Positions 2,786 through 33,728 of a DNA stretch of 34,808 bases are shown here, in pieces. The notes under the pieces are model-generated. The model saw nothing but the letters and a program-made list of their open reading frames with translations. It ran no database searches and was not told where the DNA came from. Position numbers and translations under genes: made by a program. Every line of letters begins with the position of its first letter. Positions within the stretch are counted from its first letter, which is position 1. This DNA comes from a virus, in the IMG/VR virus record IMGVR_UViG_3300025141_000367, positions 1-34,808 of that record; one strand, given 5' to 3'.

Positions 2786-3901
2786 ATGAGTAATATCGAA
2801 AATCAAAGAGGTGGTATACAGGATACGGGTGGGATAGGTCAAGAAAAGATATCTTCCCCAGGACAACCTACTAATAGAACTGTGAGGGTAGACTCTCATT
2901 TAGGGGACGAGAATTGGGTGGGTAAACTGACCTTACAGTACTGGGAATCAGAAACTTTACCAAAATTTAGAGTTATACCTTTTTTTGAAAACCCCACCAT
3001 TATAGAATCTCAAAATCCTCGTTATATGAATTATGCTGTTATAGGGAGATCCTCTAACCTCTTTGGATACTTAGGAGCAGATTCCAGAAAGTTTAATTTA
3101 TCTTTCAAATTAAACTTACCACACATAACTTCTTTACTTAAGCAGTACTCAAACTTATGGTCTACTCCCCCGAGTAAGTTGCAAAAAAGAAGAGATATGT
3201 TGGAGGAAGATAATGTTAATCAAGCTGGTTTAGAGAAACAGGGAAGAGAAAACTCTATGAAGCTGGGCTCCTTTACCCAAGAGATTACAGGGATAGGTAC
3301 TGCTCAAAGAATGCAGGGAGCTAATCAGGAAATGGAAGCGATAAAAACGCAAATATCTAATGACCAGCAATTAGATGATATTAGTGAAAAGGAAAAACAT
3401 TTTGGAGGAGTAGCTAAAGAGTTTGATGAGGAATATCAAAAACTATTAGGTGATACTCCAGCAGGAAACCTTCAGACCTACCTTTCTTACGACAGTCCTT
3501 TATACGATTTAACTAGCGAAGGAGCAAAATTAAGAAGATCAACTATTAACCAAATAGTTTCTCTAATAGCTTCTATAAGATCTACTGTTCTAAATAACAC
3601 GGTTAATCCAGAGTTCGGACCCCCTTTGGTTAGGTTGGATTGGGGAATCTTGTATAGAGATGTTCCTTGCGTATGTAAAGGATATACTATTAATATAAAT
3701 GATAAGGCGGGTTACGATAAAAAGACTTTATTACCTCGCGTTCTAGATATTACAATGAGTTTAGAAGAAGCTAGAAAATTACAAAATATCTCTGGGGTTA
3801 CTCAGGATGATATAAAAGGTTGGGAAATTTTAGTAGGAACGGATCAGAACCCAGGACTTACAATGGACCCAGGAAACTTTAAGCAGGTTAAGAATGGATA
3901 A
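2786..3901 (+). CDS. gp48/gp54-like tail tube-baseplate junction protein
   Basis: Residues about 60-115 contain FENPTIIESQNPRY, then GRSSNLFGYLGADSRKFNLS. This 'fen-P-x-I-x-E-S ... sR-x-f-x-l-s-F' pattern is found in phage tube-initiator and LysM-associated baseplate proteins. Residues about 285-335 (DWGILYRDVPCVCKGYTINI, then DITMSLEEARK) form the matching C-terminal half, where a 'W-G-x-l-y-r-d-V-x-C' strand pairs with an 'I-x-M-s-L-x-E' strand. This resembles the gp48/gp54 and tail-tube-like fold that starts tube polymerisation on the hub. Between them lies a charged helical insert (residues 125-220) carrying a GIGTAQRM motif that is shared with the hub gene downstream. The start is the ATG three bases after the preceding TAG, with a G-rich ribosome binding site. 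Its stop is overlapped by the gp53-like gene. Confidence 0.6.
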   Translation: MSNIENQRGGIQDTGGIGQEKISSPGQPTNRTVRVDSHLGDENWVGKLTLQYWESETLPKFRVIPFFENPTIIESQNPRYMNYAVIGRSSNLFGYLGADSRKFNLSFKLNLPHITSLLKQYSNLWSTPPSKLQKRRDMLEEDNVNQAGLEKQGRENSMKLGSFTQEITGIGTAQRMQGANQEMEAIKTQISNDQQLDDISEKEKHFGGVAKEFDEEYQKLLGDTPAGNLQTYLSYDSPLYDLTSEGAKLRRSTINQIVSLIASIRSTVLNNTVNPEFGPPLVRLDWGILYRDVPCVCKGYTININDKAGYDKKTLLPRVLDITMSLEEARKLQNISGVTQDDIKGWEILVGTDQNPGLTMDPGNFKQVKNG

Positions 3902-4205
3902 TTACCTATCTAGATATGATTATGGTGTGAATACGATAACTCACAAAGGAAAATCTATTACCACTTCTTTACATACTAATTTTATGGATACTTTAGATCC
4001 AACGTCTCCTTTCGCTAATCATGGTATTGCGAGACTTAAACAGTATGTAAAAGAGAGGCCTGATGCGATATCTGATATATTTTATAACTCTAGTGCATAT
4101 TGGTGGTACATTTTATTGTATAATAATATAAATGATCCTTTTGAAGGACTTAGCCCTTCTACTAAAATTCTTATACCTAAAATAAATGTCAACCTTAGAA
4201 AATAA
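3894..4205 (+). CDS. 53: gp53-like baseplate wedge protein (LysM-like)
   Basis: A 103-residue protein whose second half (residues 68-95) reads YWWYILLYNNINDPFEGL followed by ILIP. The aromatic cluster, the 'N-x-I-x-D-P-F-E-G-L' turn and the final 'l-x-I-P' strand are the signature of the gp53/LysM-like baseplate wedge family, whose members are short. In T4, gp53 binds the gp6-gp7-gp25 inner wedge and helps join wedges around the hub. The gene overlaps the previous stop by 8 bases and its own end overlaps the hub gene by 20 bases, so it lies in the middle of a coupled hub cassette. Nothing is missing relative to the small family members. Confidence 0.8.
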   Translation: MDNYLSRYDYGVNTITHKGKSITTSLHTNFMDTLDPTSPFANHGIARLKQYVKERPDAISDIFYNSSAYWWYILLYNNINDPFEGLSPSTKILIPKINVNLRK

Positions 4206-10619: not shown

Positions 10620-11063
10620 ATGGTATTATACGGAAAAGTAGCAACTAAAATAACTAAAGAATCAATAGTTTCTGGCCCCAAAGCTAAGAGGATTGGTTTA
10701 CAATGGCCCTCTAAACAGGAAATCGTGGAACCTTTTTTTGATAAGTCTAGTGGTTATTCGTTAATTAAAGATCAAATAAGACAATTCATACTTACGAGCA
10801 AAGGAGAACGGGTTATGATGCCTGATTTTGGAACAAGTTTAATGAATTTTGTATTTGAACCCTTTACATCTTCTTTAGCAAGCTTATTAGCCAACGAAAT
10901 AATAGAAGGAATGGTTAAATATATTCCTAATGTTAGAGTTAGTCGGGTTAGGTTCTTTCAAGATGACAATATTCACGGGTTCGGGCTTCCTGGAATACGA
11001 GTACAGGTGGCTGTAAGCCCTGTGAAGTCGTCCGACATTATAAATATACAGGTAACAATATGA
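10620..11063 (+). CDS. 25: gp25-like baseplate wedge protein
   Basis: A 147-residue protein of the gp25/GpW lysozyme-like wedge family. The diagnostic stretch is residues 62-80: GERVMMPDFGTSLMNFVFEP, matching the family pattern 'G-E-R-v-m-x-P-x-f-G-t-x-l-x-x-x-l-F-E-P'. The following helix and the strand YIPNVRVSRV complete the domain. About 40 residues precede it, slightly more than in T4 gp25 (132 residues). gp25 forms the inner wedge core with gp6 and gp7 and contacts the first sheath ring. The end overlaps the gp6-like start by ATGA, matching the common gp25-gp6 gene pair. Confidence 0.9.
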   Translation: MVLYGKVATKITKESIVSGPKAKRIGLQWPSKQEIVEPFFDKSSGYSLIKDQIRQFILTSKGERVMMPDFGTSLMNFVFEPFTSSLASLLANEIIEGMVKYIPNVRVSRVRFFQDDNIHGFGLPGIRVQVAVSPVKSSDIINIQVTI

Positions 11064-12670
11064 GTAATCCTTACGCCAGCCAAACAGTCCCCTTTACTGA
11101 TGTAACTTCTGATTTTCAGAAATTAGCTACTATCCCAGACAGCTTAAAAGATACTTATATTGATTATGGGGCTACAGACTTTGCCTCTCTTAGAAATGCA
11201 TTAATTAAATATATTAATGCGGTATACCCAACAGAATATAACAACTTTGTAGAGTCTGATTTAGGAATGATGTTAATTGAGATTGTATCTTATATGGGGG
11301 CAGTTATGTCCCTTAAATCAGATATGTTGGCTAATGAAAATTTTATAACGACTGCTAAAGATATAGATAGTGTTAGAAAGCTATTTAATCTTGTGGGTAT
11401 TTCTATGAATGGTCCTACTTCGGCTCAAACTTCTCCTAAAGTTTATGTTGATGGGGTAGCTACTTTAATTAAAAGTTTAGAGTTAACTCCCTCTGAAAGG
11501 GTGTTTACTGTTAACTCTCCTCAAGATGGTGAAGTTCTTACTTATACAATGTATAGAATTAGTGATGGGGTTATAGATAATGTAAATAGTAATGGAACTA
11601 TACAATTACAAACCCAGAGTGCCCCAGATAGAGAGTATTATGTAGACGCGGTACTATTAGAAGGAGCTTTTGGTTATCAAACTGGGACATTCTCTCAAGT
11701 AGATACTTTTAAATCAATAACTTTAGAGGAAAGTCCAGTTATACAAAATAGTGTAGAGGTTTATGTAGATATGCCTACAGTACCTTCGGTAGATGGCGCA
11801 TACAGACAGGTTAATAATTTATACCAAGCATCTTCTACAAATGATAAGGTTTTTGAGGTAGTTTACAATGACAACTATGCAGCTAGAATAGTGTTTGGTG
11901 ATGGTAGTAACGGGGTGTCCCCACCAGCACTAGCTAATTATACGGTCACTTATAGGGTTGGTGGTGGATCTAGGGGAAATCTTCCCGCTAATTATATTAA
12001 CGGAGTGGGTACTGGGACATATGATGGGGGCGAAAAATCTATAAGGATAGTTCAAGATTCTATATCTACTGGTGGCTCAGACGCTGAAACTGTAGATCAT
12101 GCTAAAACATTTGGCCCCCTTTTCTTTAAAACCCAAGATAGAATAGTCTCTTTAGAGGATTATAAAGCTTACGCTAATAATTTTACCTCTCCCTTAGGCA
12201 CTACAGGAAGGGCTACCGCAGTTACCCGTCAGGCGTACTCGTCTGCCAACATCATAGATTTATATCTTTTAGAAAAGGCTAGTACTACTCAATTCCAGAA
12301 AGCCTCATTATCGTTTAAGGACGCTATGCTAACAGCTTTAGAAAGTAAAAAGATGTTAACTGATGAGGTAGTTTTGGTAGATGGTCTTATTAGAACTTTA
12401 GATTTAGTAGTTACGATAAATGTAGATAAGAAATTTGAAGGTATGGAAGGAACTGTTACTTCCAGAGTGGCAGATAGGATACAAAATTATTTCTTAGTAG
12501 ATAATTGGGATTTTGGGGACCCCCTGATTATATCAGATCTTAATAGACATATCTTTGAGACAGATGATGTTCGATTTTCTAGTGTGGACAACATAACTTC
12601 CAACGTACCAGTTGAATTTAATGAAATTATTCAATTAAATAATGTTTCGGTAAATGTAGCTCTGGTCTAA
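11060..12670 (+). CDS. 6: gp6-like baseplate wedge protein (baseplate J family)
   Basis: A 536-residue protein. Near residues 58-100 it has NNFVESDLGMMLIEIVSYMG followed by NENFITTAKDIDSVRKL, the typical baseplate J opening ('f-x-x-S-d-x-G-x-m-l-i-e', then a helix rich in N/E-N). Residues about 245-320 contain a strand-rich region with FGDGSNGVSPP and YRVGGGSRGNLPAN, the 'G-d-G-x-x-G-x-x-P ... Y-r-x-G-g-g-x-x-G-N' motif of gp6/J proteins. Later comes EDYKAYANNF, another conserved J element. gp6 makes the iris-like ring of wedge dimers. The gene is flanked by gp25 (ATGA) and the gp7-like gene (TAATG), the standard order. It is slightly shorter than T4 gp6 (660 residues). Confidence 0.9.
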   Translation: MSNPYASQTVPFTDVTSDFQKLATIPDSLKDTYIDYGATDFASLRNALIKYINAVYPTEYNNFVESDLGMMLIEIVSYMGAVMSLKSDMLANENFITTAKDIDSVRKLFNLVGISMNGPTSAQTSPKVYVDGVATLIKSLELTPSERVFTVNSPQDGEVLTYTMYRISDGVIDNVNSNGTIQLQTQSAPDREYYVDAVLLEGAFGYQTGTFSQVDTFKSITLEESPVIQNSVEVYVDMPTVPSVDGAYRQVNNLYQASSTNDKVFEVVYNDNYAARIVFGDGSNGVSPPALANYTVTYRVGGGSRGNLPANYINGVGTGTYDGGEKSIRIVQDSISTGGSDAETVDHAKTFGPLFFKTQDRIVSLEDYKAYANNFTSPLGTTGRATAVTRQAYSSANIIDLYLLEKASTTQFQKASLSFKDAMLTALESKKMLTDEVVLVDGLIRTLDLVVTINVDKKFEGMEGTVTSRVADRIQNYFLVDNWDFGDPLIISDLNRHIFETDDVRFSSVDNITSNVPVEFNEIIQLNNVSVNVALV

Positions 12671-15600: not shown

Positions 15601-17088
15601 GTAAGTTCTGATTTAATCAGTGATAGTGTTTATAATGAAAAAACCTTTACCATATCTTCACTTGATAATTTAAATAATATTAAGGCTTATTATAAGCAAG
15701 ACATGTTTGTAGGGGCTAGAGAAGTTAGAAACCCGTATGTTCTTTCTGGTGTAGAATTAGTAGACGCTTATGATGGCACTTCAGAGTTTTCTATATTTAG
15801 GTTGGGGTCAGACCAAGCATCCCCCAATAGAGATAATTATAATATACACAACACATTGTGTGTATTAGATCCTCAGGGACAGTTCCCTAGATATAGATTC
15901 AATCTAAAGGATTATGGAGAAGTTACAAATTCTATATTACCAGAACGAAAGTATAAGTTAGATCTTAATGCGTTAATCGGGAGAAAAAATTCAGATACTT
16001 TAGGTGGGGGATCTTTTGGGGTGTGGATACACACTGGGATGGAAACTGATCTAGATGGTAATAAAATGTTTTGGACTTTTATGCCTAATGGAGAGTGGGG
16101 AAGAATATTAGTGAAGGATATACAAGATGAAGGGAGCATAAATTATGTAAAACAATCTTTATCCCATTCCTTGGATTTTTCAGAACTATATTCAATAAGT
16201 TTAGAGGAGTGCTTTGCTGAAGAAGCTGACAAAGAGGTTATAGGAGTTTTACAAAAAGATGATTTTAGAACGGGATCAGTTATATTTAATACATATAATA
16301 ATAAGATTAAGTTGCCATTAAATTATTATGAAATGGAAAATCAAATACATAGAACATCTCAAAATTATATAGTAGAAGTATTTATGTATGACAATAGTGA
16401 TCCTGATTTATTCTCTGTAATTGATTATGTTTCTACTAAGGATTTAAGGCAATATAATAGAGCATTTATTAAGCACCCAATTACCTATCATAAATACGAT
16501 AAATATAAAGATCCTATTGTTAATGATATAGATTTTTATGATAGTAGTGGTGGCTTAATAGGGTCTGGTATAAGTTTATCTGCTGACTCTAATGGAAATA
16601 TTACTACTTTGGGAGGAGATAAGGTTACTGCTCATATAGCTACAGTACTTGGTCCCGCTATATCAACGGGTATTCTATATTCTCAAGTCTCTATGACGAC
16701 TAATGCCTCCTGGGAAAAAGACCAAAACTCAAGGACTATATATTTTGGATCTAGATTATATGATGGTATATTTACACTAAATTCTTCATCCGTTGAGTCT
16801 CCTTCGTCTATAACAATAGTAGGGAAAACTAAAGGTTCTAATATATCTGTAAATGAGACATTATATGTGTCTTTAGATCCTGAAGAGGTTTTGATAATAC
16901 TTAGAGAATTCAAAAGACTACAAGCAGAGATGGGAGCTAGGAATAAAGCTATTAGCGCAGCAGAGTTTGGACCAGAGGGCGGTAGCAGATTGAATTATAG
17001 AGATGCTCCTATGTGGGGTCAGACTGGGGGCTATGCTACTTTCGAAACTGATGCTAGACAATACACAAGGATAAATGTGGAAAACTAA
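12670..17088 (+). CDS. 7: gp7-like baseplate wedge protein with P2 gpI-like region
   Basis: A 1472-residue protein following gp6. Residues about 317-385 contain LDKCPDNLLKYVAELIGW followed by WRRQLRYAVKLYKQKGT and EGLYNAMTTVLPG. This is the phage P2 gpI/tail-protein-I pattern ('cp-x-x-l-x-x-l-a-x-x-l-g ... W-r-x-x-l-x-x-a-x-x-l-y-r-x-K-G-T-x-x-g-l'), which in T4 belongs to gp7. T4 gp7 has 1032 residues, so this copy is about 440 longer. A cluster C-x8-C-x4-C-x4-C at residues 102-121 could bind metal. The long C-terminal part is beta-rich and not recognised. A short region near 14560-14760 is much richer in G+C than its surroundings. It starts and ends with TAATG couplings. Confidence 0.75.
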   Translation: MSQKYFKRNYKDALESIIPTIYFSTEVETSGMAVSQVDTLINSHINFCINQPSLLGISAVGEFSSINTVSGITRWFLPENIDKDKLTPLEFEIQVLHKLGLCTGKQFGQPCTYFNCSSTDCQEDISGIPYNKLLSFFKTKVLPKIVLNSNSLADTTVSAFSNTASGTHEHLINSLGWAYFLNTSADVEDPSGYVASALTDMYMSGTNFLMKEGIKGAAHYTWKNWTSLSSISIGLLPSNYYSGTGEYVSGTQGLDRLKTLIDVIYSDQVATRDDDYVSVAFEDYIQNGFLLDNRERTGPLSKFIEGVAYSLFDINNESQKIQSLYDLDKCPDNLLKYVAELIGWSLKGSNPRGWRRQLRYAVKLYKQKGTKEGLYNAMTTVLPGTSLEMSTISEFYESYIPFLMYYLIKTDSSLFNSFVSWSPSHASVYTSGEYSYSDMDHNIRLVIDHLMLRATKKFNSLFYVRNFEFDPNNPDFIFNYRGRNFPIPPWEEIKFYKSCDVTTNLLTFFKDELICLGVSHIHATNFFNYVLENTVNNSYLPSYSNSFLFFTSGLNTAPNETYILDNREANKYNFLSMWNSKSSTFNVSVSSGTFDTQFFNDTIFTKNDFFQALSIVDDFSPAKAISRTHVDMLHTDYMRTAVYTCPSTRFWMQDITVSGLQGASMASGMDMLSISGAKGADYNYTLDNSGRAANDHTNLPVFLRGFVDSPLDYSQMEGSAVSAAPLVDVFRTNKRRRNFSNNLEKGGWYNRTGYNMPTYYNLSSGGGGNPEFCVQGFVNEQYVFNPVINFKNLYEVSAWPFDTDLWSNCYTLNSTLIDNNIPVSSTFDVRGSNALSADSCNDYARRDRPPEFAAFLHKLLDKKYTKEAERVYEVNKFLIDTSAFLNPITCIKNRLWSKTTDSFDVLYDIILGKRIFSIGSKDGMHKMFKDYISYFTGTGIGNGLLDTYEGGGADILSHTYGPLFLNGRFTTDGSGIDVSSDLISDSVYNEKTFTISSLDNLNNIKAYYKQDMFVGAREVRNPYVLSGVELVDAYDGTSEFSIFRLGSDQASPNRDNYNIHNTLCVLDPQGQFPRYRFNLKDYGEVTNSILPERKYKLDLNALIGRKNSDTLGGGSFGVWIHTGMETDLDGNKMFWTFMPNGEWGRILVKDIQDEGSINYVKQSLSHSLDFSELYSISLEECFAEEADKEVIGVLQKDDFRTGSVIFNTYNNKIKLPLNYYEMENQIHRTSQNYIVEVFMYDNSDPDLFSVIDYVSTKDLRQYNRAFIKHPITYHKYDKYKDPIVNDIDFYDSSGGLIGSGISLSADSNGNITTLGGDKVTAHIATVLGPAISTGILYSQVSMTTNASWEKDQNSRTIYFGSRLYDGIFTLNSSSVESPSSITIVGKTKGSNISVNETLYVSLDPEEVLIILREFKRLQAEMGARNKAISAAEFGPEGGSRLNYRDAPMWGQTGGYATFETDARQYTRINVEN

Positions 17089-19196
17089 TGAAAGGTATAG
17101 TAGAAATATACGGTACTACAGATGATGGTAAGAAAGACCTTCTTTACCAGGGGGAGAACATGACTACGGTTGGATTCTCTGAAAATATTGTAGATATGTT
17201 AACCCTTCCGTCTTCTATAGTTTCATCTACTGAGAGTGGTGATTACTTAAATCCAGAAAATTATATCATAAATGCTTTTTCTATGTCTAAAGCTAAGGAT
17301 CAGTTTAAAAAGAATCTTCATGCTTATAGTACAACTAACTTACTTCACTATTCTAAGGACCTGACTAAGGCAATTTACGGGTTATCTCCTTTTGCTTCTA
17401 TTTGGAGTAGAACTAATCTTGAGCCAGCCAGTGCCGTAGATATAGAAACTGTTGATTACGAGTCTAGTGCATTTTTACTAGACACTATTACTTCTGGGGG
17501 AAGTTTATCACAAGAGATTTTATATGACGACTCCTGGGCTGGTGCTTATGCGTCTTCTTATTTTAGCGCAACAGATTTTGTATTTTCTATAGATATGAAA
17601 ATGAATACTGCTAATCCACCAATCCAAGTGTCTTCTGGTCCTAATGGTGAGTATCGAGGCTACACCCAACTAGCTATTAGTGGTAACGGTGCTGCAAGCG
17701 GAATGTTTTTTGAGTGGGATGAGAGTGGCATACCAACAGTATTCAATAGGGATACTGGGTACAATTTCGGCCAAAATTTAGGGGGAATAAAAAGTTTAGG
17801 TGGTGGATGGTATAGAGCGTTTGTCTACTCTAAGTATGATAGTGGTGGGGATAGTGCCAAAACTATAGTTTATATATACCCATCTTTAGGCCCATTAGGT
17901 GAGCATCTTGTTGGAAAAAGTTATAAGGCTACGGGAAAAGCGGGATCTATATTTGTATCTAGACCCCAACTAGAGTTAGGGATACACCCAACAAATTATG
18001 TGGAAACTAGTGCTTTGTCTCCGAGAGATGGTTTGCTAAAATATTCAAGACTTAATTCTACACCTCCTTACGGTACGGATGTAGATGGAAGCGCAGCTAT
18101 AAACTATTATGTGGTTTCCGACTCTGGGGGACCCACTCTTAGCGGGATATATGATGAAACCTTAGATAAAGGAGTATCAGCGTATATCCCATCTAAAAAT
18201 GAACTTATACCCACAGCTAACCCAGAAGATAGGGAACTTACCCCAGGAGCCCGTACACCTGTCGAAGAAGCATTTAATGTTCAGATAACTAAGGGACAGA
18301 TATCTGATTGTCAGCATATGTGGGATAGGTTAAGAGTAGACAAGTATGATAATTCTTGGCAATATGCCAAGAATTACAAACCTTATTTTGGAAGACATTT
18401 AACTTATGTTGGAGCGTTTTCCTCTAGGAATAATTGGGTTCCTTCTGGGAGTCTGGGTACAAATGATCAAAACGACTCTACTAAAATCCAGGTAACAAAT
18501 TGGGTTCATTATGTTTCAGCCTATGATGAAAATGGATATGCTTCTCCTTTGTCTAGCGTATCTTTGTCTGGTGGTTGGCTTACTAATTTTAATAAAGCAT
18601 CTACTCCTGACATGGATGGGTTTATACCTGTATTAAATTATGCTATTTCTGCGGGGCCAGGAGACACCAATGATACCGCTGCTAATTGGGTTCCTGGGTG
18701 TGGGTGGAGGCGCAATGTAATGCAAAGTCAGATACATCTCGACTTTTCTTCCACAGGGGAAGTAACTTATCATTTAAGACAAATAAATATGTCAGGGAAT
18801 TCTGACTTTGATTTCATATCACCACCAGTAGGTGTAGATGGGGTTACTTTAAATAGTGATTCGGTGCTATTAAATCTTTTCGGTGGTGTAGATGTTATAG
18901 GTTTGTGGGGGTTTGATTTGAAGAAGATAAGAGCAGATGATACTATAGAAGATACTTTGTATAGGTATCCGTTTGTGGGAGCGGGGGCAGATAGAGCTAC
19001 TATTGATGCACAGACTAAGGATAGCGAGGCTGCGCCTAATAAAAATCACCCATGGGATCCCTATAGGAGATATAAACTTTATAGTAAAAAAGTTCTTACT
19101 GATAATATAATGAAGAATGAAGGGTTTGGAACTTCAGCAGGTATATTCACTAATTATAAAAATCTAGACTTGTATTGGAAGGTGAAGTTCATATGA
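17088..19196 (+). CDS. Fibre/adhesin protein A with carbohydrate-binding-like domain
   Basis: A 702-residue protein. The N-terminus (MKGIVEIYGTTDDGKKDLLY, then GENMTTVGFSENI) is a short beta cap shared with the next two genes. Residues about 105-310 resemble the carbohydrate-binding-like jelly roll common in phage tail spikes: an N-terminal 'd-f-v-f-S-i-d-m-K' strand, GGGWYRAFVY in the middle and SRPQLELGIHPTNYVETS at the end. The C-terminus (VIGLWGFDLKK ... NLDLYWKVKFI) looks like a diverged form of the C-terminal cap of the two following paralogues. The likely role is host-surface binding from the baseplate rim. No enzyme residues were recognised. It is coupled to gp7 (TAATG) and to the next gene (ATGA). 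Confidence 0.6.
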   Translation: MKGIVEIYGTTDDGKKDLLYQGENMTTVGFSENIVDMLTLPSSIVSSTESGDYLNPENYIINAFSMSKAKDQFKKNLHAYSTTNLLHYSKDLTKAIYGLSPFASIWSRTNLEPASAVDIETVDYESSAFLLDTITSGGSLSQEILYDDSWAGAYASSYFSATDFVFSIDMKMNTANPPIQVSSGPNGEYRGYTQLAISGNGAASGMFFEWDESGIPTVFNRDTGYNFGQNLGGIKSLGGGWYRAFVYSKYDSGGDSAKTIVYIYPSLGPLGEHLVGKSYKATGKAGSIFVSRPQLELGIHPTNYVETSALSPRDGLLKYSRLNSTPPYGTDVDGSAAINYYVVSDSGGPTLSGIYDETLDKGVSAYIPSKNELIPTANPEDRELTPGARTPVEEAFNVQITKGQISDCQHMWDRLRVDKYDNSWQYAKNYKPYFGRHLTYVGAFSSRNNWVPSGSLGTNDQNDSTKIQVTNWVHYVSAYDENGYASPLSSVSLSGGWLTNFNKASTPDMDGFIPVLNYAISAGPGDTNDTAANWVPGCGWRRNVMQSQIHLDFSSTGEVTYHLRQINMSGNSDFDFISPPVGVDGVTLNSDSVLLNLFGGVDVIGLWGFDLKKIRADDTIEDTLYRYPFVGAGADRATIDAQTKDSEAAPNKNHPWDPYRRYKLYSKKVLTDNIMKNEGFGTSAGIFTNYKNLDLYWKVKFI

Positions 19197-21022
19197 TAGG
19201 TAAGGTTAAAATAAAGAAGGTTAGTAAATCCACTGGTCAGGAAGAGGTTATATTTGAAGACGAGAATCAATTAACAGAAGGGATAAAACATGCTGTCGTG
19301 AATGTTCTTACTGGCACGGGCTCACAAGATATAAATGATTATAAATTTAGTTATTATCAATTAGGCAATCAAAAATACGACTTAAGTACTTATGATATTT
19401 CAGCAGATGTAACTTCTTCAGCCCTTAAATCTTACTTTTGGACTCTTAAAAGTCCTCTTACTATTTCTCAATATGGGAGAGACAGTATTTTTGGTGTAGC
19501 CCCTAAAGATACTTATGTTATGGGATCTATTTACCCATCAGGTACAGGAACCACTAAAGTTATTGATAATTTTGTTCAGCCTCCAGATGCAAGAACAGTC
19601 CGTAATGAATATTCCAATACTTTTGCGCTCGCCCCACTAGGGTATACTCCTGGGAAGAGCGGTACTCTACTTCTTTCAAGTATTTATGTAGCAGGGTGTG
19701 CTGATATTTGGGTTGGACGGCCCGAAAATTACGGTGTAGCCCCCATGTCAAGCTTGCAGGACTACTCTATGTCTGGGCCAGACTTCGCCGCACCCACATG
19801 GAGAATGGCTTACACCCCTGAGAGGTACTTAGAAACTTCGTTAGGTAAAACTGCTTTTGCAGCTACTTGTATAAGGGCTCATTTTGGGTATGTTTATAAT
19901 GGTAACACTGCGGAACACCAAAAAGGGGAGGAGATGGTGATATTTTCTAAATTAAGAAAAAATCAAACCTTATCTAATTATTATGCAGGGGTTCATTATA
20001 CTTCTGGAAGCCCAGAGCTTCCATCTACTACTTTAACTGGGCGAGTTCAGATATTTAATAGATTTGCGATGAACTTAATAGCTACCCACGCTGGGCAAAA
20101 TAGAAATACTTTTTTATATAGGTATGATTATGATAATGTTAACGTCACCTATACCCCTAGAATATTAGATGTATCTAGTGGGTGGGAGCAATATGCGGCA
20201 GCTAAAGGGGACGCCTCCGCAGTCCAAGAATTTAAGGATGTTTATGGTTTCCCTAATAATGCGGCTGAGTCGAAGGCTGAGTACGGAGTAGTGTCAGGTA
20301 ATATTTACAACAAGTATGGGGCTGTATATACTTATGCAGATCATCTAAATAGTTATTCTTCTGAAACTGGTCCTGGGGCTAGTTATATGGATACCCCTAA
20401 TGTAGGTTTTGGTCCAAGTGGTAATTTTTATAGAGCTTCCGTAAGCTGGGTTAGCGCATCAGATAACATGATTAATAATTACCATGCTTATGCTAACGGA
20501 ACAGAACTAGTAGGACAGGGATTAGTACCCTTTACCTATCCTGTAGTTTCAAGTGTTAAGGAGATAGATGGGACTGACGTAGTTGGAGAATATGTTATAG
20601 AGAAAATTCCTAGATCAGCAGCTTATATAGGATTTCAGCAATGGGATTATAATGCAGAGCCACAAGCCAACCAGCATGTTCATGGGGAGGCTTCTTACTA
20701 CTTAACTTATCCACAAGATTTTGTAGACATACCAGACGAATATACTACTAACCATTTAGATAATATCACTAATGTGAGGTTAGTTGTAGATGAGGCTTTA
20801 GCAAATTCTCAAACAATTAGAGAGGTAGGATTATTTCTTAAAAATCCAAGCGGAGCTACAGGTAGAGACGCCCCATTTTTAGCAGCCTATAAGTTTCTTC
20901 CTTGTGATATTAGTAAAACCTCTGAATTTTCGTATATAATTGATTGGGAGCTATCTTTTATGGATACTTCAGTCTCTTACACAGAGCAGTCTGGCGCGTC
21001 CGAGGGGTGTACTTCTTCTTAG
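19193..21022 (+). CDS. Fibre/adhesin protein B, paralogue of its neighbours
   Basis: The ATG at 19193 is chosen over an upstream in-frame TTG because GGAAGG at 19177-19182 precedes it and it overlaps the previous stop as ATGA, giving 609 residues. The N-terminal cap (MIGKVKIKKVSKSTGQEEVI, DENQLTEGIKHAVVNVL, then YYQLGNQKYDLSTYDIS) matches the cap of protein C. The C-terminal cap (residues about 535-595: IREVGLFLKNPSG, LAAYKF, SKTSEFSYIIDWELSF) is even closer to C. The middle of about 430 residues is beta-rich with many Y/S/G and is not recognised. It is probably a trimeric baseplate-rim fibre or short adhesin. No membrane segment or catalytic motif is seen. Confidence 0.6.
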   Translation: MIGKVKIKKVSKSTGQEEVIFEDENQLTEGIKHAVVNVLTGTGSQDINDYKFSYYQLGNQKYDLSTYDISADVTSSALKSYFWTLKSPLTISQYGRDSIFGVAPKDTYVMGSIYPSGTGTTKVIDNFVQPPDARTVRNEYSNTFALAPLGYTPGKSGTLLLSSIYVAGCADIWVGRPENYGVAPMSSLQDYSMSGPDFAAPTWRMAYTPERYLETSLGKTAFAATCIRAHFGYVYNGNTAEHQKGEEMVIFSKLRKNQTLSNYYAGVHYTSGSPELPSTTLTGRVQIFNRFAMNLIATHAGQNRNTFLYRYDYDNVNVTYTPRILDVSSGWEQYAAAKGDASAVQEFKDVYGFPNNAAESKAEYGVVSGNIYNKYGAVYTYADHLNSYSSETGPGASYMDTPNVGFGPSGNFYRASVSWVSASDNMINNYHAYANGTELVGQGLVPFTYPVVSSVKEIDGTDVVGEYVIEKIPRSAAYIGFQQWDYNAEPQANQHVHGEASYYLTYPQDFVDIPDEYTTNHLDNITNVRLVVDEALANSQTIREVGLFLKNPSGATGRDAPFLAAYKFLPCDISKTSEFSYIIDWELSFMDTSVSYTEQSGASEGCTSS

Positions 21023-27678: not shown

Positions 27679-30600
27679 ATGGCAAATTTTATAACTTGCT
27701 GGCTACAGGACCCTGGTGATTTGCCCCCTGGTGATGGTCCCCCAGGAGGTAGTGGAGATGGTGGACCTAAAGATGATGATGATGATGGTGAGGATTGTAC
27801 TGGGTTTATAACCTATTATGGTTGTGTAACTCCAGACACTTTAGATTGGGATAATGAAACTAACTGTACTTTTAGTTTTGATGAACCTATAGATTGTGAA
27901 AACGGGAATGCGGAGTGTGTAGCCGATCCTGGCGGGGCGGGACTTGCTTGCTCCTCGATGGGAGATCCCAGATGTGAGGTTACTTGTGAAGGGCCTAAAG
28001 TATCGTGTGCGGGGTCCAAATGTTTAGGTTTGCCTACTGGATCGTGTGACCCGTGGCCTTTGGGTACGGATTATGATCTGTATAGAGCGGGGATGTGTGG
28101 TAAGACAAAGGCTCCAGGGTGTGGTGATATACAATGGCCTTGTGATGGCTCGTATATAGACAATGCCGCTTGTATGGCTGCTGATGCGCCCCCAGCGGGG
28201 CCTGGAAACTGTGTTGCGGCAACTTGCCCCTCGTTTATCTGTGAGACTGTAGGGTGCGAACCTGGGGGTGGGCAGGAAAAGGGAGAGTGTAAGGGTAGTT
28301 CTGTAACTTTTGCGGATTGTCCTAATTTTTTTGACGCTGACGAAGTCACTTGTTATGACAATCCCGCTAATCCTCAAAGTTGCGATGTGAATGGTATTTT
28401 GCATTACCAAAAAGAGTCGGACTGTGAAGATGCAGATGAGTGTATTAAGGTGCTTACATGCCCAGCTTTTGAATGTGACCCCGAATCTGAGGAGTGTGAT
28501 TACACAGGTACGGGAGGTAGTACTGGCGGTGAAGAGTGTTGCAGCGCAGTAACTTTATCTAATGCAGACGGTGATTATTGTGACGCTGGTGGTGACCCCC
28601 CTAACTGTAATGTGGAAGGAGTATACAATGGAACTGGCCCGTATTACATAGATAAACCAACGTGTGAAGCAGATTGTATTAAATGTGGGAATGGATACCT
28701 GTGTAAAAATGAAGATGGGGAGGATACCGAATTCTACGGAGACTGCGAACAGGACCCCCCTGCCTGTCCATTAGTATGGGATTCTGACGACGAAAGCTGT
28801 GAGCTAGAAGAGGGTTACGAGGATAGTTGCTTCAAGTTACAGCCCGATTGTTTGGAGTCTGGGTGTGAGTGTTCAGGTTTTGTTGGGTGTGAATTAGCAT
28901 TAGCTACAGATAATACTAGTACCGACTGTAGAACATGTGATCCTTCTGGTCTGGAGCAAGGAACGGGTGGATTTGGTAAGTGTTTATATGACGACGAGAC
29001 TAAGGTTTTTGCCCTTAATGGTTATCCTACATTAACTTGTCAGGAATTTTATGACGCTTATAAAGCTAGTGACTATTATTTTCCTATAGCATCCGAAGAT
29101 GATAAAGCTGACACTGAGGCACTATGTGAGTCAGCCTGTACTGATGATACCCCACCCCCATGTCACTCATGTACTAAAGAAACAAATTGTTATGAGTGTG
29201 AGGAGATAATGGAGCCTCTTAGGATGGAGGTATGCGTAGAGAGCAACGAAACGGTTAATAAGTGTCAGGAGGATGATGGATGTACCGCAACTAAGGACCT
29301 TGCTGGAGACTGGGAATGTGTTTGTAGTCCAGGCACTTATTACATAGACCCAGATTGTGACGACAAGTGCTATAATTGCCACGAGCACCCCGACGGTGAT
29401 CTGTATGACTCCAATGATTGTGATAACGAATGTGGTCTAACTGGAGGGGGGGGTCCCCCTCCCCCTGAGGAAGGGTATGGATTTTATGGGGGCAAGAAAG
29501 CTTATGAAAGAATTTATGCATCCGATAAAGGCAATCCTATTTTTGAAAAACATATAAGCAATATTAAGGTAAAGAATACCCCTGGGTTTGTTCCTGTACT
29601 AAGAGGAGATCTTAGAGAAGATTTATTCAAGCATAGGATTCATGTAGGTATAAAAGCCACAACAGATATTAATAATAAGACAATTAGATTTAGTGATAAT
29701 CCATTTAGTGATTTAAGTGATAAGAATATAGAAAAGAGTATACATAATCATATTATTTTAAAGTTAAACTTAGCTAGAGCAGCTACAGGTAAACCTCTAA
29801 AGAAAATGTTTTTAAGTACTATTAGAGGATTGATTATATCTAATAGATTAGATACCTTTAACCTCCAACAATTAAATGAATTGTTGGATAGGATAATTAG
29901 CGTTCAAGATGCTCCAGAATATAAGGATACTAGAAAGTATACCCCTTTACTTAATTTAAATACTATAGGAAATGAAGCAGCAGCCATTGAGTTAGCTACT
30001 AAGCATATCTGGCCTTTAAATCCTGATAGTTATAGTGAGGTGAGAGTATCTGAAAGGATGCGTACATGGAAGACTTTGGCCCCCGATCTACAAAAGTATC
30101 TTCCAATCACTACCACAGAAGGAGTTACCACTCCTTTCTATTACTCTATATCAGACACTATTACTTTGGCTGGCAGTGGAACCCTCACATTAAGTAATGG
30201 AGATCTTCAACACATTACTTTAAGTGATGGTAGTACGGGAGCTATCCCTATTCAAAGTTTACGGGATCGTGCTGGGATTCTTAGTATAGAAACTCTTCAA
30301 AAGTTAATGTATTTACTTGGTGATGAGTACGACTTTAATCTTAAGGCTACTACTGATCAGATTGATAGGGTAGATGAGCGGTACGGACTAACTAATGCTA
30401 GAAAGAATATATATTTTCTAGCACTCCAACCAGATACTATTACTGATTTAGAAAGGAGAAACCCTTTTGTGGCTAGATCCAAAGCTACTTATAAATGGGA
30501 GCATACTGCGGAGGCTAAAAATTCTACAGTAAGTACTGCGGGGTCTGGTGCTGCATTTCCTTGCTTAGAAGTTTACTTAGATGTAAATGATCCTTTCTTT

Positions 30601-31350
30601 AGTTATATTGAAAATAAGGGTATTCTTGAACTTACCTTTAAAGACTTCGTGTTAGATCTCTTTGATGAGGAGGATACACAAAACTTATTCATACCAGTAA
30701 TCCCTAGAAGAGTCCCTCAGGTTATAGCCATATATCCTTCTGATATGACCTCTACTGTAGTAACTAATAATATATCTAAGTCTACCTCTTATGGTGTAAG
30801 AGAAGTGGATATTGTTATGAACCCTAATCCAGATAGAATAGATACTTGGCATCCCGTATTCTTACAAGAAGAGTTAGCTTATCCTGCTAGGGGTATAGAT
30901 CCGAGTAAAGATAACTATCAATCCCTTAAATATTCTATGAATACTCAAGATATAAAGGATCAATCCTTATTCTACTCAGGAGAGCAGCCTACAGAGCGCA
31001 TAGCTTGGGGAGAAAGACAGGTGTATAAAATAGCCCAAGAGCTAAAAGCTGATTATCAACTTCCTGCCAACAATACCATTAACTGGTATGAAATTTATGA
31101 TAGGATGGACATTCCTCAAATGAAGTTCTTACATAAAGAATGTAGAAATTTTGAGAGTTTTAAATCTCTTTTAAGTATGGGCAACCCTTCCTCTAGCAAG
31201 GTAGTAAATGCCCATTATCCTAAAATCAAAGAGTATAGATCTAGGAATTGGTTAGCAGGAGGCGATCCTACAGAATCTGTGTACGATGATATAAAATGGT
31301 TAGAAGTAAAACCTAACCATACTCCTATTCCACCTACCCCCCTGGATTAA
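27679..31350 (+). CDS. Two-part virion protein: cysteine-rich N-terminal half plus unknown C-terminal half
   Basis: A 1223-residue protein with two unlike halves. Residues 7-585 carry 65 cysteines by my count, many in C-x(2-6)-C spacing, with high D/E/G/P content and an acidic, proline/glycine-rich start (GDGPPGGSGDGGP and five aspartates). Internal repetition is visible: YYID followed by closely spaced cysteines occurs at residues 322 and 554, and two modules of the type 'a/s-V-T-x ... C ... n-C-n/d-V-x-G ... C-x-x-d-x-x-C' lie near residues 208 and 291. Residues 589-596 are GGGGPPPP. The C-terminal 625 residues have only two cysteines and are helical to mixed, ending VKPNHTPIPPTPLD. I recognise neither half. 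No signal peptide is present. It lies between fibre genes and the PAAR tip gene, so a surface appendage is likely. The ribosome binding site is weak. Confidence 0.6.
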   Translation: MANFITCWLQDPGDLPPGDGPPGGSGDGGPKDDDDDGEDCTGFITYYGCVTPDTLDWDNETNCTFSFDEPIDCENGNAECVADPGGAGLACSSMGDPRCEVTCEGPKVSCAGSKCLGLPTGSCDPWPLGTDYDLYRAGMCGKTKAPGCGDIQWPCDGSYIDNAACMAADAPPAGPGNCVAATCPSFICETVGCEPGGGQEKGECKGSSVTFADCPNFFDADEVTCYDNPANPQSCDVNGILHYQKESDCEDADECIKVLTCPAFECDPESEECDYTGTGGSTGGEECCSAVTLSNADGDYCDAGGDPPNCNVEGVYNGTGPYYIDKPTCEADCIKCGNGYLCKNEDGEDTEFYGDCEQDPPACPLVWDSDDESCELEEGYEDSCFKLQPDCLESGCECSGFVGCELALATDNTSTDCRTCDPSGLEQGTGGFGKCLYDDETKVFALNGYPTLTCQEFYDAYKASDYYFPIASEDDKADTEALCESACTDDTPPPCHSCTKETNCYECEEIMEPLRMEVCVESNETVNKCQEDDGCTATKDLAGDWECVCSPGTYYIDPDCDDKCYNCHEHPDGDLYDSNDCDNECGLTGGGGPPPPEEGYGFYGGKKAYERIYASDKGNPIFEKHISNIKVKNTPGFVPVLRGDLREDLFKHRIHVGIKATTDINNKTIRFSDNPFSDLSDKNIEKSIHNHIILKLNLARAATGKPLKKMFLSTIRGLIISNRLDTFNLQQLNELLDRIISVQDAPEYKDTRKYTPLLNLNTIGNEAAAIELATKHIWPLNPDSYSEVRVSERMRTWKTLAPDLQKYLPITTTEGVTTPFYYSISDTITLAGSGTLTLSNGDLQHITLSDGSTGAIPIQSLRDRAGILSIETLQKLMYLLGDEYDFNLKATTDQIDRVDERYGLTNARKNIYFLALQPDTITDLERRNPFVARSKATYKWEHTAEAKNSTVSTAGSGAAFPCLEVYLDVNDPFFSYIENKGILELTFKDFVLDLFDEEDTQNLFIPVIPRRVPQVIAIYPSDMTSTVVTNNISKSTSYGVREVDIVMNPNPDRIDTWHPVFLQEELAYPARGIDPSKDNYQSLKYSMNTQDIKDQSLFYSGEQPTERIAWGERQVYKIAQELKADYQLPANNTINWYEIYDRMDIPQMKFLHKECRNFESFKSLLSMGNPSSSKVVNAHYPKIKEYRSRNWLAGGDPTESVYDDIKWLEVKPNHTPIPPTPLD
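27772..27786 (+). repeat. (GAT)5 run in the acidic start of the Cys-rich protein
   Basis: Five GAT triplets encode five aspartates. Just upstream, the 10-mer CCCTGGTGAT occurs twice, at 27711-27720 and 27726-27735, 15 bases apart. Both repeats preserve the reading frame, so length changes would lengthen or shorten the acidic linker without a frameshift. Confidence 0.8.
29446..29465 (+). repeat. G8-T-C5-T-C5 tract at the domain boundary
   Basis: A run of eight G, then T, five C, T and five C, encoding the GGGGPPPP linker. It can fold on itself by G:C pairing. It is the longest G run I noticed in the window and sits exactly between the cysteine-rich and cysteine-poor halves of the 27679 gene. 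Confidence 0.85.
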
Positions 31351-31351
31351 A

Positions 31352-32353
31352 ATGCCACAAGTAGCAAGAGAATTTGATACATGTGATCACGGTGGAGCCC
31401 CTATTGGGCAAGACGGGAAGGGGATCGACTCTACGGTATTCGTCAACAGCCGCGCCGTAGCTGTCTCAGATGGCATTGGGGACGGTGCTACGGGTCCGTG
31501 TGGGTTATGGCAAGACAACCTTACCCCAGCAGGGGATGGATTTGATACGCACCCTTTGGGGAGATCCCCTTTATACCCTGCTGGATCGAACCCCCCTGGA
31601 ATACCTGGGCCTACTACTGGATCTGATACTGTTTTCGTAGGGGGTCTCCCTATACATAGGTTTAATGATGATAGGGGCTGTGGTGCAGAAACTATTACTG
31701 CTTCTCCCGATGTGTGGGCTGATTTCGTGGCTAAGATTAGAATTGAGGGTGCTACAGTTAACAATCCTAAACCCTCTCCTGCTGCAATTACTAGTTGGGG
31801 TTATTCTCCAATAACATTCTTTCAGTTTACCTCCGTAAATCCAGGTATGTTTTATGTTATTAAAAATTCATCTAAAAATAAACTCTTTAGGCTCTTAAAT
31901 TTTTACGATTTTGAGGAGTGGGGAACTAGCATTACCGCTACATTAGAGTTTGAAGAAGTTACGGATGCGGATAAATTTAAAGTTCCTGATATAGATTTAG
32001 CAGTGAGGACATTACCCTTCCCTCTAGTAGATCCTTTTGGTGTTCCTAATACTAATAATCCCGCTATTACCGCATCTTTTGGGGGATTAATTGCTAAAGG
32101 ATTTCCTTCTTTTGGAGAAATTAGAGATCTTAGTGGGTTTGGGCGTATATCAGGGCTAGGTACTACGGAGAGTTGGCAAGACTTCTTTGCTCCTTCTTAT
32201 GATAATCCCGAATTCCCCCTTCTTGTAACTGGTTTGACAGGTACTGGATTTAAAGGGTATCCATTTAAAGTGGCTAATGAGTCTGGGTCTATGACTAGCT
32301 ACCTTAAACTTATAAATATACCTACTGTGCCATTCTCAAACTTCCTATTCTAA
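31352..32353 (+). CDS. PAAR-type spike-tip protein with C-terminal extension
   Basis: Residues 1-125 form a PAAR-like domain. Two related hairpins, STVFVNSRAVAVSDG (about 27-41) and DTVFVGGLPIHRFNDD (92-107), show the 'g-s-x-t-V-f-v-n-g-x-p-v-a/h-r-x-x-D' repeat. Cys/His residues at positions 11, 13, 50, 67, 102 and 110 are candidates for the tip metal site. PAAR proteins (T4 gp5.4, T6SS PAAR) sharpen the spike that pierces the outer envelope, so the expected partner is the gp5-like spike at 6422-7510. Unlike gp5.4 (97 residues), it continues for about 200 more residues that I do not recognise (SPITFFQFTSVNPGMFYVIK and so on). The first 120 codons are GC-rich and the rest AT-rich. The gene starts one base after the previous stop. 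Confidence 0.75.
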   Translation: MPQVAREFDTCDHGGAPIGQDGKGIDSTVFVNSRAVAVSDGIGDGATGPCGLWQDNLTPAGDGFDTHPLGRSPLYPAGSNPPGIPGPTTGSDTVFVGGLPIHRFNDDRGCGAETITASPDVWADFVAKIRIEGATVNNPKPSPAAITSWGYSPITFFQFTSVNPGMFYVIKNSSKNKLFRLLNFYDFEEWGTSITATLEFEEVTDADKFKVPDIDLAVRTLPFPLVDPFGVPNTNNPAITASFGGLIAKGFPSFGEIRDLSGFGRISGLGTTESWQDFFAPSYDNPEFPLLVTGLTGTGFKGYPFKVANESGSMTSYLKLINIPTVPFSNFLF

Positions 32354-32453
32354 TAATGGCACAACTAAATTTAAAAAAAAGGGGCTTTCTTTCCCTATAT
32401 ATAATAGATACAATAGGCAGTAATGTCTAAACCCATTTTTGGAGAATAAAACA
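32354..32453 (+). promoter_or_regulatory. 100-base gap before the head module; candidate promoter
   Basis: This is the longest non-coding gap of the window. It contains A8 (32373-32380), GGGG and CCC around a pyrimidine stretch, and a perfect TATAAT at 32400-32405 with no clear -35 box at 17 bases. A start near 32412 would leave a leader of about 42 bases ending in GGAGA (32441-32445). A TATAAATA octamer also lies just upstream, at 32311-32318, inside the PAAR gene. The position between the tail and head modules makes a promoter reasonable. The only hairpin (AGGG/CCCT) is too weak to call a terminator. Confidence 0.35.
32441..32445 (+). promoter_or_regulatory. Ribosome binding site for the 32454 start
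   Basis: GGAGA lies eight bases before the ATG at 32454. An in-frame TTG at 32439 lies upstream of this site and would place the site inside the coding region, so the ATG is the real start. Confidence 0.75.
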
Positions 32454-32858
32454 ATGGATAAAGTAAGTAATGATTTTGTTAATCAGCTTTTAGAATCCCG
32501 TGGTTGGGACAAGGCTGGTATTCGTGTTGATGAAGGTAAGAAGACTGGTGGTGGTCCTGCCGTTGAAGGTGCTAAGGAAGTTGGTAAGAGTGCTTATGAT
32601 AATGAGAATAACTCTCCTGAAGGTATTACTGAGGAAAGCAACTGCTGCCCTCTGTGTGAAGCTGATTTTGGTGAGTACGAGCTTACCGATGAAGCCCTTC
32701 AAGAACATGCTGCTAATATGATGGAAGTTTTCTCAGAAGCTGGTCTCATTTCTGAGCAAGTTGAAGAGTCTTTCATTATTGAGAACGCTGATGAAATTCT
32801 TGGTGTTCTTTCCGAAGCTGGTCTTATTGTTGAAGCTGTTGACGAAGACGACGAGTAA
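32454..32858 (+). CDS. Acidic 134-residue protein, candidate prohead core component
   Basis: Strongly acidic (ends AVDEDDE), with a C-C-P-L-C element at residues 64-68 followed by a helix with one histidine. The C-terminal half contains an imperfect repeat: FSEAGLISEQVEE and LSEAGLIVEAVDE. It carries seven [L/I]-x-E tripeptides (LLE, ITE, LCE, LQE, ISE, IIE, IVE), the cleavage consensus of T4 gp21. T4 gp67, an acidic core protein cut to internal peptides, is encoded in the same place upstream of gene 21, so a gp67-like role is a reasonable inference, although sequence homology is not visible. Codon use differs from the tail genes: all isoleucines are ATT and arginine is CGT where I checked, fitting an abundant protein. 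The stop overlaps the next start (TAATG). Confidence 0.6.
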   Translation: MDKVSNDFVNQLLESRGWDKAGIRVDEGKKTGGGPAVEGAKEVGKSAYDNENNSPEGITEESNCCPLCEADFGEYELTDEALQEHAANMMEVFSEAGLISEQVEESFIIENADEILGVLSEAGLIVEAVDEDDE

Positions 32859-33310
32859 TGGGTAAGTTAGAAGAGTCAGGAATGGGCATTGGGGACTTTG
32901 CTATGTCTCTGATGGACTCTGGTAAGATCTCTAAGAAGGTGCAATCTCCTGAGGTTGCTCGTCCTACAGAATTACCTGTATCAGAGGTTGATATATCTGA
33001 AGTACAAGTAACTGACTCTATGGTAGATAAAGTTCTTAATGAATCTTTTGGATTATCTAAAACCTCTACTAGAAGACAAGTTAACGCCCCTATTCTTACA
33101 GAGCAAGAACTTCTTCAAGAAAAAATCGTAAGTCTTAAAGAAGAGTTAGTTGAGACTATCAATAAACTCTCTTCACTCGTTTCTGAAATGGCTGGGATGG
33201 GAATGACTACTACTCAGTCTATAGGTACTGGTTATTCTACGGAGAATGTAACAGGAAAATATCGTGGACGCAATAAACGCTCTAAAATTATTAAACGCAC
33301 CTCTAAATGA
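32858..33310 (+). CDS. 150-residue helical protein, candidate prohead core component
   Basis: The N-terminal third is flexible and methionine/serine-rich (GMGIGDFAMSLMDSGKISKK), the middle has acid-hydrophobic alternation (VSEVDISEVQV), and residues 79-108 form a leucine-rich coiled-coil-like helix (LTEQELLQEKIVSLKEELVE, then INKL). The tail is basic (KYRGRNKRSKIIKR). Seven [L/I]-x-E tripeptides are present (LEE, ISE, LNE, LTE, LQE, LKE, LVE). A coiled-coil protein with a basic tail placed between an acidic core protein and the protease would suit a scaffold or core component. Named homology is not recognised. Its last 47 bases overlap the next gene in another frame. Confidence 0.6.
   Translation: MGKLEESGMGIGDFAMSLMDSGKISKKVQSPEVARPTELPVSEVDISEVQVTDSMVDKVLNESFGLSKTSTRRQVNAPILTEQELLQEKIVSLKEELVETINKLSSLVSEMAGMGMTTTQSIGTGYSTENVTGKYRGRNKRSKIIKRTSK
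33253..33258 (+). promoter_or_regulatory. Ribosome binding site supporting a GTG start at 33264
   Basis: AGGAAA lies five bases before GTG 33264 (seven counted from the GGA core). The only ATG at the junction (33307) is in a different frame that stops within about 25 codons, so the GTG is the best available start for the basic protein. Confidence 0.5.
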
Positions 33311-33728
33311 AAAGAAAAGTGGTCGCTACCCTTCTGGGAGAGGTGGCTACAAAACTAAAGGAACTAGTGGTGATTTAGCAATTAAATCTAGAGTGAAGGT
33401 GTACGGTACGATAAAGAAAGCATTAGCGGCGAAGGGACCTGGGCATATATTTTCTACACAAGGATCTAGAAGATTGTATGTAGTATCTAAAAGAACTCAC
33501 GGTGGAACTGATTCTAAGTCGGTGGTAAGTGGAAGAATAGCAAAAGGGTTTACGCCAGGAAGTGCAACTCCAAGTGCCGACTGGGGTTCTGTAAAAGATC
33601 ATGCTGCAAGGGTGGGGTATAAATACACTGGTAAGAAGGCTAAGAAGCTTTCCGCTAAAGCTAGAAGAGAAGCTCGTAAGGGCAAAAAATATCAAAAGAA
33701 AACACATACAGGAAGAGGACAAAAATGA
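33264..33728 (+). CDS. Very basic 154-residue protein in the prohead module
   Basis: About a quarter of the residues are Lys or Arg against about seven Asp/Glu. The start is GTG with a good ribosome binding site, and it overlaps the previous gene by 47 bases. Residues about 40-75 (SRVKVYGTIKKALAAKGPGH, IFSTQGSRRLYVVSKRTHGG) contain a short helix and two strands that could form a small nucleic-acid-binding fold. The C-terminus (KKAKKLSAKARREARKGKK) is a lysine-rich tail. I know no named family for it. Possible roles are a DNA-condensing internal head protein or a charge partner of the acidic core protein 0.4 kb upstream (compare T4 gp67/gp68), both inferred from charge and place. The stop overlaps the protease start (ATGA). 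Confidence 0.6.
   Translation: MDAINALKLLNAPLNEKKSGRYPSGRGGYKTKGTSGDLAIKSRVKVYGTIKKALAAKGPGHIFSTQGSRRLYVVSKRTHGGTDSKSVVSGRIAKGFTPGSATPSADWGSVKDHAARVGYKYTGKKAKKLSAKARREARKGKKYQKKTHTGRGQK

Follow-up and report, generated by a model that had tools for sequence, protein, structure and literature searches.

It is well established that marine phages which are otherwise near-identical can differ in tail and host-recognition genes (PMC3909814, PMC7029224); such genes have been described as 'metaviromic islands' (PMC3909814) and as the host recognition cluster of pelagimyophages (PMC7029224). The variable parts named in these two papers are tail fibres and C1q-like, lectin-like and YadA domains, and the word 'cysteine' is absent from their main texts. 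The locus described here resembles these cases in that variation is centred on tail genes and a conserved attachment is combined with a variable part. It differs in that the variable part is a region of 11–13% cysteine lying between two conserved ends. Among the papers covered by our literature search for cysteine-rich phage tail proteins there was no precedent.

Several other systems are close in one respect or another. The variant-specific surface proteins of Giardia are cysteine-rich (about 11–12%), exist in many alleles, are marked by CXXC and are made in the secretory pathway. The phage protein is likewise cysteine-rich with many alleles, but no sequence relation to them is found and CXXC is not enriched. 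EGF, TIL and TNFR/GCC2-type proteins are disulfide-rich extracellular repeat families. Spaced cysteines, small loops and Gly or Tyr ahead of cysteine pairs are shared with them, as are tandem modules in one relative (G006 below), whereas the cysteine-rich halves of eight members have no Pfam match at E up to 1. With the long-tail-fibre and short-fibre proteins of T4 the protein shares a place in a T4-like structural block and a likely role; unlike them, its variable part lies between conserved ends and not at a C-terminal tip, and the whole protein has no PHROGs match. Finally, proteins varied by diversity-generating retroelements (DGRs), such as the major tropism determinants, also carry a variable display region upon a conserved scaffold, but there adenine-directed change in a short repeat takes the place of the saturated synonymous change and indels seen here over about 1.5 kb.

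The window, by which we mean the whole analysed stretch of 34,808 nucleotides (34.8 kb; positions 1 to 34,808 of IMG/VR record IMGVR_UViG_3300025141_000367), is one long co-directional run of tail and head genes. Relatives were found in IMG/VR via the neighbouring 807-aa gene, via a DNA pattern for the N-terminal peptide and via a C-domain profile. They are G001 (3300030382_000638), G002 (3300030382_000863), G003 (3300033153_002417), G004 (3300030419_001186), G005 (3300033153_002147), G006 (3300037634_002466), G007 (3300025131_000256), G008 (3300025118_000031), L040 (3300025286_001551), L041 (3300008217_000157) and L044 (3300025141_000190). G001 ends at window position 29232 and G002, from the same metagenome, begins at 29236; they are probably two pieces of one genome, called the sister phage below. 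The genes of the window that matter here are the following.

3894–4205: gp53 homologue (baseplate)
10620–11063: gp25 homologue (baseplate)
11060–12670: gp6 homologue (baseplate)
In the window: Tail_P2_I-like protein, 1472 aa
21643–25242, plus strand: gene of a 1199-aa tail protein, second hypervariable locus of the phage group
25242–27665, plus strand: structural gene upstream of the ORF, 807 aa, synteny kept in relatives, 99.5% identity with the sister phage
27679–31350, plus strand: ORF of the cysteine-rich protein, ATG start, 1223 aa
31352–32353, plus strand: directly downstream gene of a PAAR-like spike-tip protein (PHROG 281 'PAAR motif', E 3.9e-9)
33725 to window end: T4-type prohead protease (gp21)

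An earlier note, made from the letters of the window, had called the product a phage structural protein. Its setting agrees with this, as the ORF sits in a T4-like tail/baseplate block adjoining the PAAR gene, and the order of 807-aa-like gene, cysteine-rich gene and PAAR-type gene is kept as far as the contigs of relatives extend. The product of 31352–32353 scores below the cut-off of the Pfam PAAR family. In addition to gp6, gp25, gp53 and the gp21 protease in the window, a T4-type sheath and major capsid protein (gp23) are found by tblastn in G002 and G006 at about 25–37% identity to known T4-likes. By this Straboviridae-type myophage gene content, the phages carrying the locus are a T4-like group without a cultured member.

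Some further variation is observed in the same block. Relatives differ in the gene at the PAAR position, whose product has about 333 aa in one set and about 100–131 aa in the other (short and long loci: window 31352–32353; L040:2627–3019; L041:4605–4997; L044:9801–10103; L006:16172–16507). Two tail genes within 17088–21022 are of very unequal size from one relative to another (702 vs 993 aa; 615 vs 1230 aa), perhaps the mark of exchanged fibre tips. Between the PAAR gene and the protease, a 139-aa ORF conserved in relatives (32439–32858) carries a CCPLCEADFG motif, with a weak Rad50 zinc-hook match under the curated cut-off. Two small conserved ORFs (32858–33310 and 33264–33728) overlap in different frames immediately 5' of the protease gene.

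The reading frame of the cysteine-rich gene is real, because dN is below dS overall against the nearest allele (0.37 vs 0.58) and because the frame is kept in all relatives. Our recount gives 65 cysteines within residues 1–590, followed in the rest of the 1223-aa protein by just C962 and C1155, as the earlier note had counted. Its boundary for the dense part is also right: the last cysteine is C585, after which the GGGGPPPPEEGYGFYGG linker begins. The remaining ORFs analysed (n = 20) average 0.63% cysteine (62 in 9,904 residues), so that about 3.7 would be expected per 590 residues. Among family members the best 300-aa window of the cysteine-rich region holds 36–47 cysteines. In 139 kb of T4-like phages, cultured or single-cell, no such window has more than 8 in any ORF of 300 aa or longer. 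The cysteine-rich part belongs to a protein of defined order, namely a fixed 35-aa peptide, a linker, the cysteine-rich region, a second linker and a conserved 616-aa C-terminal domain.

27679–27783, plus strand: putative N-terminal docking peptide with Gly/Pro/Asp linker, residues 1–35, MANFITCWLQDPGDLPPGDGPPGGSGDGGPKDDDD
27780–29340, plus strand: exchanged allele block against 3300030382_000638 and 3300030382_000863, from a 60-nt identity profile
27784–29478, plus strand: cysteine-rich variable region, residues 36–600, 64 cysteines
27796–28173, plus strand: first cysteine module, residues 40–165, 12 cysteines aligned in all eight members in an alignment driven in part by cysteine itself
29434–29499, plus strand: second linker, Gly/Pro, residues 586–607, GLTGGGGPPPPEEGYGFYGGKK
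29500–31347, plus strand: conserved C-terminal domain, 616 aa, 41–64% identity to the window protein within the family

Residues 1–35 (MANFITCWLQDPGDLPPGDGPPGG...DDDD, with the Gly/Pro/Asp linker at the end) are near-invariant in relatives, and their coding DNA is 98–100% identical to that of the sister phage. The second linker is the same in the sister contig but for one Gly, and the C-terminal domain is 99.8% identical. Twenty columns are invariant in the N-half alignment of eight members, 11 of them cysteine; the non-cysteine ones all lie within residues 1–35, and past residue 34 only cysteines are invariant. The N-half is cysteine-rich at the same locus in every relative covering it, including one with 41% identity in the C-terminal domain, and the complete family proteins have cysteine-rich regions of 365–573 aa at 11–13% cysteine. 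The proteins of G006 and G008 are identical to each other.

Internal repeats had been proposed for the cysteine-rich half, with two modules near residues 208 and 291. These are not supported: residues 182–257 against 260–335 score 44, at a permutation mean of 44.4, and when the inter-cysteine segments of the window protein are permuted, 31 of 60 permutations reach a self-similarity as high. Self-alignment with standard cysteine weights is useless here, because permuted sequences score equally high. The YYID motif that had also been reported is present at residues 322 and 554, but its first copy is absent from the sister allele. Genuine tandem repeats are found in G006 (score 68 vs a permutation maximum of 63; 0/60). 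There, as in G008 (L026:8635–10212), modules about 40 aa long, each containing several cysteines (CWKC...CC...CP.GSF...KKKCD.GC), follow one another, and the region also carries a Gly-rich insertion. An internal-repeat HMM built from G006 found no carry-over to other members save one weak match in L044. Another cysteine-rich protein (398 aa, 24 cysteines, C-terminal end CPGVDWPCSSPGPCTGAGCEECS) is encoded in G006 at L023:3207–4403 on the minus strand, adjoining the gene of a LamG-domain protein; its sequence suggests a beta-helix-like appendage.

Database searches place the protein in no described family, as the earlier note had surmised. The cysteine-rich halves of the eight members are without NCBIfam match too, and the profiles of EGF, TIL, GCC2/GCC3, zinc ribbon, metallothionein and Fe-S families gave 0 matches. 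Pfam and PHROGs gave no useful match to the C-halves of the family, the PDB no credible match by sequence or profile, and the C-domain profile none in GTDB genomes. In tblastn against 50,697 phage records (INPHARED) the whole protein and the cysteine-rich half were unmatched; the single match of the C-half was judged to be chance, as were isolated weak family matches (e.g. isocitrate lyase). AlphaFold models of the two halves have a mean pLDDT of 31.9 and 37.7, too low for use, and a Foldseek search with the better one gave a meaningless best E of 2.8.

A comparison with the sister phage shows that the cysteine-rich region has been exchanged between near-identical phages. Shared flanking genes are 98–100% identical (proteins 97–100%, nucleotides 98.9–100%), with a dS of about 0.01 and at most about 0.013. 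Identity in 60-nt bins falls from about 1.0 to 0.3–0.6 at about 27780 and has recovered to about 1.0 near 29340, and dS in successive 80-codon stretches is 2.8 and 2.1, then 0.6, 0.4 and 0.1. Against the sister phage the first cysteine module has 34% identity (25% with cysteines left out); against G003 it has 59%, despite 82–89% in most flanking proteins of the latter. In all comparisons the cysteine-rich region is the least or near-least conserved stretch of the contig. Mutation under selection would not by itself bring the synonymous sites of a single block to saturation, which argues for allele exchange borne by recombination. This exchange of a cysteine-rich block between near-identical phages is a new finding, seen in one allele pair and thus in a small sample.

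Two other origins of the divergent block were considered. The break between the G001 and G002 assemblies falls inside it; as to a chimeric assembly of the window, the window allele is nearer to the independent relative G003 (59%), which argues for a natural allele. DGR diversification was rejected, as it does not fit a changed block of about 1.5 kb with indels and a dS of 2–2.8 at its 5' end; the scanned ORFs of the window include no reverse transcriptase.

The 1199-aa tail protein is swapped likewise. Its G007 and G008 versions have 498 differences, mostly central, with flanks near 100% identical, and the cysteine-rich stretch shared by these two phages differs at one position. Since both genes are swapped, tail-protein regions are exchanged separately at two or more loci in the group. 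In the G008 comparison (L027/L026, 23040–25200), the centre of the 1199-aa protein is at about 0.45–0.9 identity and both ends are near 100%.

Within the exchanged region, cysteines are kept preferentially. In a standard alignment of the window protein with G001, 53 of 54 cysteines are kept, compared with 52% of other residues. Because such scoring rewards Cys–Cys matches, the alignment was repeated with cysteine neutral, and 43 of 54 are still kept (51% of others, P 7e-5). By the same cysteine-blind procedure 16 of 16 are kept in G003 (54% of others) and 62% in L041 (33% of others), and the 43% kept in G004 (30% of others) is not a significant excess. Preferential retention thus holds in close and middle relatives, also when alignment is blind to cysteine. 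The distant G005, G006 and L044 show no excess in cysteine-blind alignment, so that the 12 'invariant' cysteines of the first module rest partly on cysteine-rewarding alignment. In the eight-member alignment G001 and G006 share additional cysteines at about residues 47 and 66, neither of which is present in the window protein, G003 or G005; C80 and C91 are both absent from G004 and L044. The number of cysteines from the equivalent of C7 to that of C165 is even in all eight members (16–24), a parity sought post hoc and no more than suggestive. Whole-region totals are odd in some members, and therefore not all cysteines can pair within one chain.

We consider the protein to be probably a tail- or baseplate-associated host-recognition protein with a hypervariable, cysteine-scaffolded domain. 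A role as adhesin, suggested in the earlier note, is the best supported one, because the cysteine-rich region is swapped between near-identical phages, and hypervariability against the flanks in such phages is what a receptor-binding tail protein would show. The behaviour of separately exchanged tail regions matches that of the host-recognition modules of marine phages, which also supports a recognition role. The region could instead serve for stability or spacing, as armour, as protection from proteases or as a stalk, in which case its divergence would reflect weak constraint plus recombination and not host recognition. It is very acidic and Gly/Pro-rich, varies in length from 365 to 573 aa, and family searches found no lectin or other binding domain in it. 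We nevertheless regard this as unlikely: the divergence is an abrupt, saturated block in genomes at a dS of about 0.01, as expected of whole alleles exchanged and kept in the population, the fold is constrained, as cysteine retention shows, and a second tail protein is swapped in the same manner.

Somewhat less probable still is a domain stabilised by metal (Zn, Fe or Fe-S). The earlier note had left the choice between disulfides and metal. Binding of metal would allow easy folding in the reducing cytoplasm; the PAAR family, to which the downstream neighbour is related, is known for metal-bound tips, and some CWxC/CYxC pairs are present. CC and CxC pairs are typical of metallothioneins, yet both are depleted against shuffles in all four full-length members tested. 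CxxC is without significant enrichment in all four (observed vs expected 5 vs 7.1 in the window protein, 4 vs 6.7 and 5 vs 4.6 in two others, and 10 vs 7.7 in G006, P 0.22). The pair enrichment of metallothioneins or zinc ribbons (CxC, CC, CxxC) is thus not seen in these members. Each cysteine-rich region has 0–5 His, and zinc-ribbon and Fe-S families are unmatched. In three of the four, G006 being the exception, the cysteines are spaced more evenly than in shuffles. Such spacing fits disulfide-braced loops better than metal sites, the bonding state being predicted. The appearance of a cysteine-bonded domain noted earlier is therefore retained, and metal binding of the metallothionein or zinc-ribbon kind is disfavoured. 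No thioredoxin or glutaredoxin is found in the genes scanned on the partial contigs of relatives.

That the protein acts outside the virion, as an assembly factor or released at lysis, as a C-terminal domain without any match might allow, is very improbable given the co-directional tail block and the synteny between structural gene and PAAR gene wherever contigs reach.

For the host-recognition protein that we favour, the following arrangement is probable. The short N-terminal peptide and the large conserved C-terminal domain would anchor the protein to the particle, and the cysteine-rich domain would be held between both ends on flexible Gly/Pro/Asp linkers. Its cysteines, most likely disulfide-paired, would make a covalent frame, which would let the residues between them vary almost freely. 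Recombination in the conserved flanks would then swap whole alleles of the domain, and nearly clonal phages would come to carry different binding surfaces. In a more specific version, a tail adhesin with about 30 disulfides, which could not form in the reducing cytoplasm of the host, would be assembled unfolded or loosely folded and lock after lysis, its frame constant and its loop sets exchanged. The post-release step, raised in the earlier note, is one among several possibilities, and we hold this version to be doubtful.

Phage receptor-binding tips are commonly described as beta-rich folds with variable loops. If our reading is true, a variable recognition domain whose cysteine frame stays fixed would meet the same need in another way, with a resemblance to the variable, cysteine-rich coats that some protists have. 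The question would then arise how a virion assembled in the cytoplasm makes, or delays, many disulfides, and the domain would provide variable loops with a scaffold that is both natural and stable.
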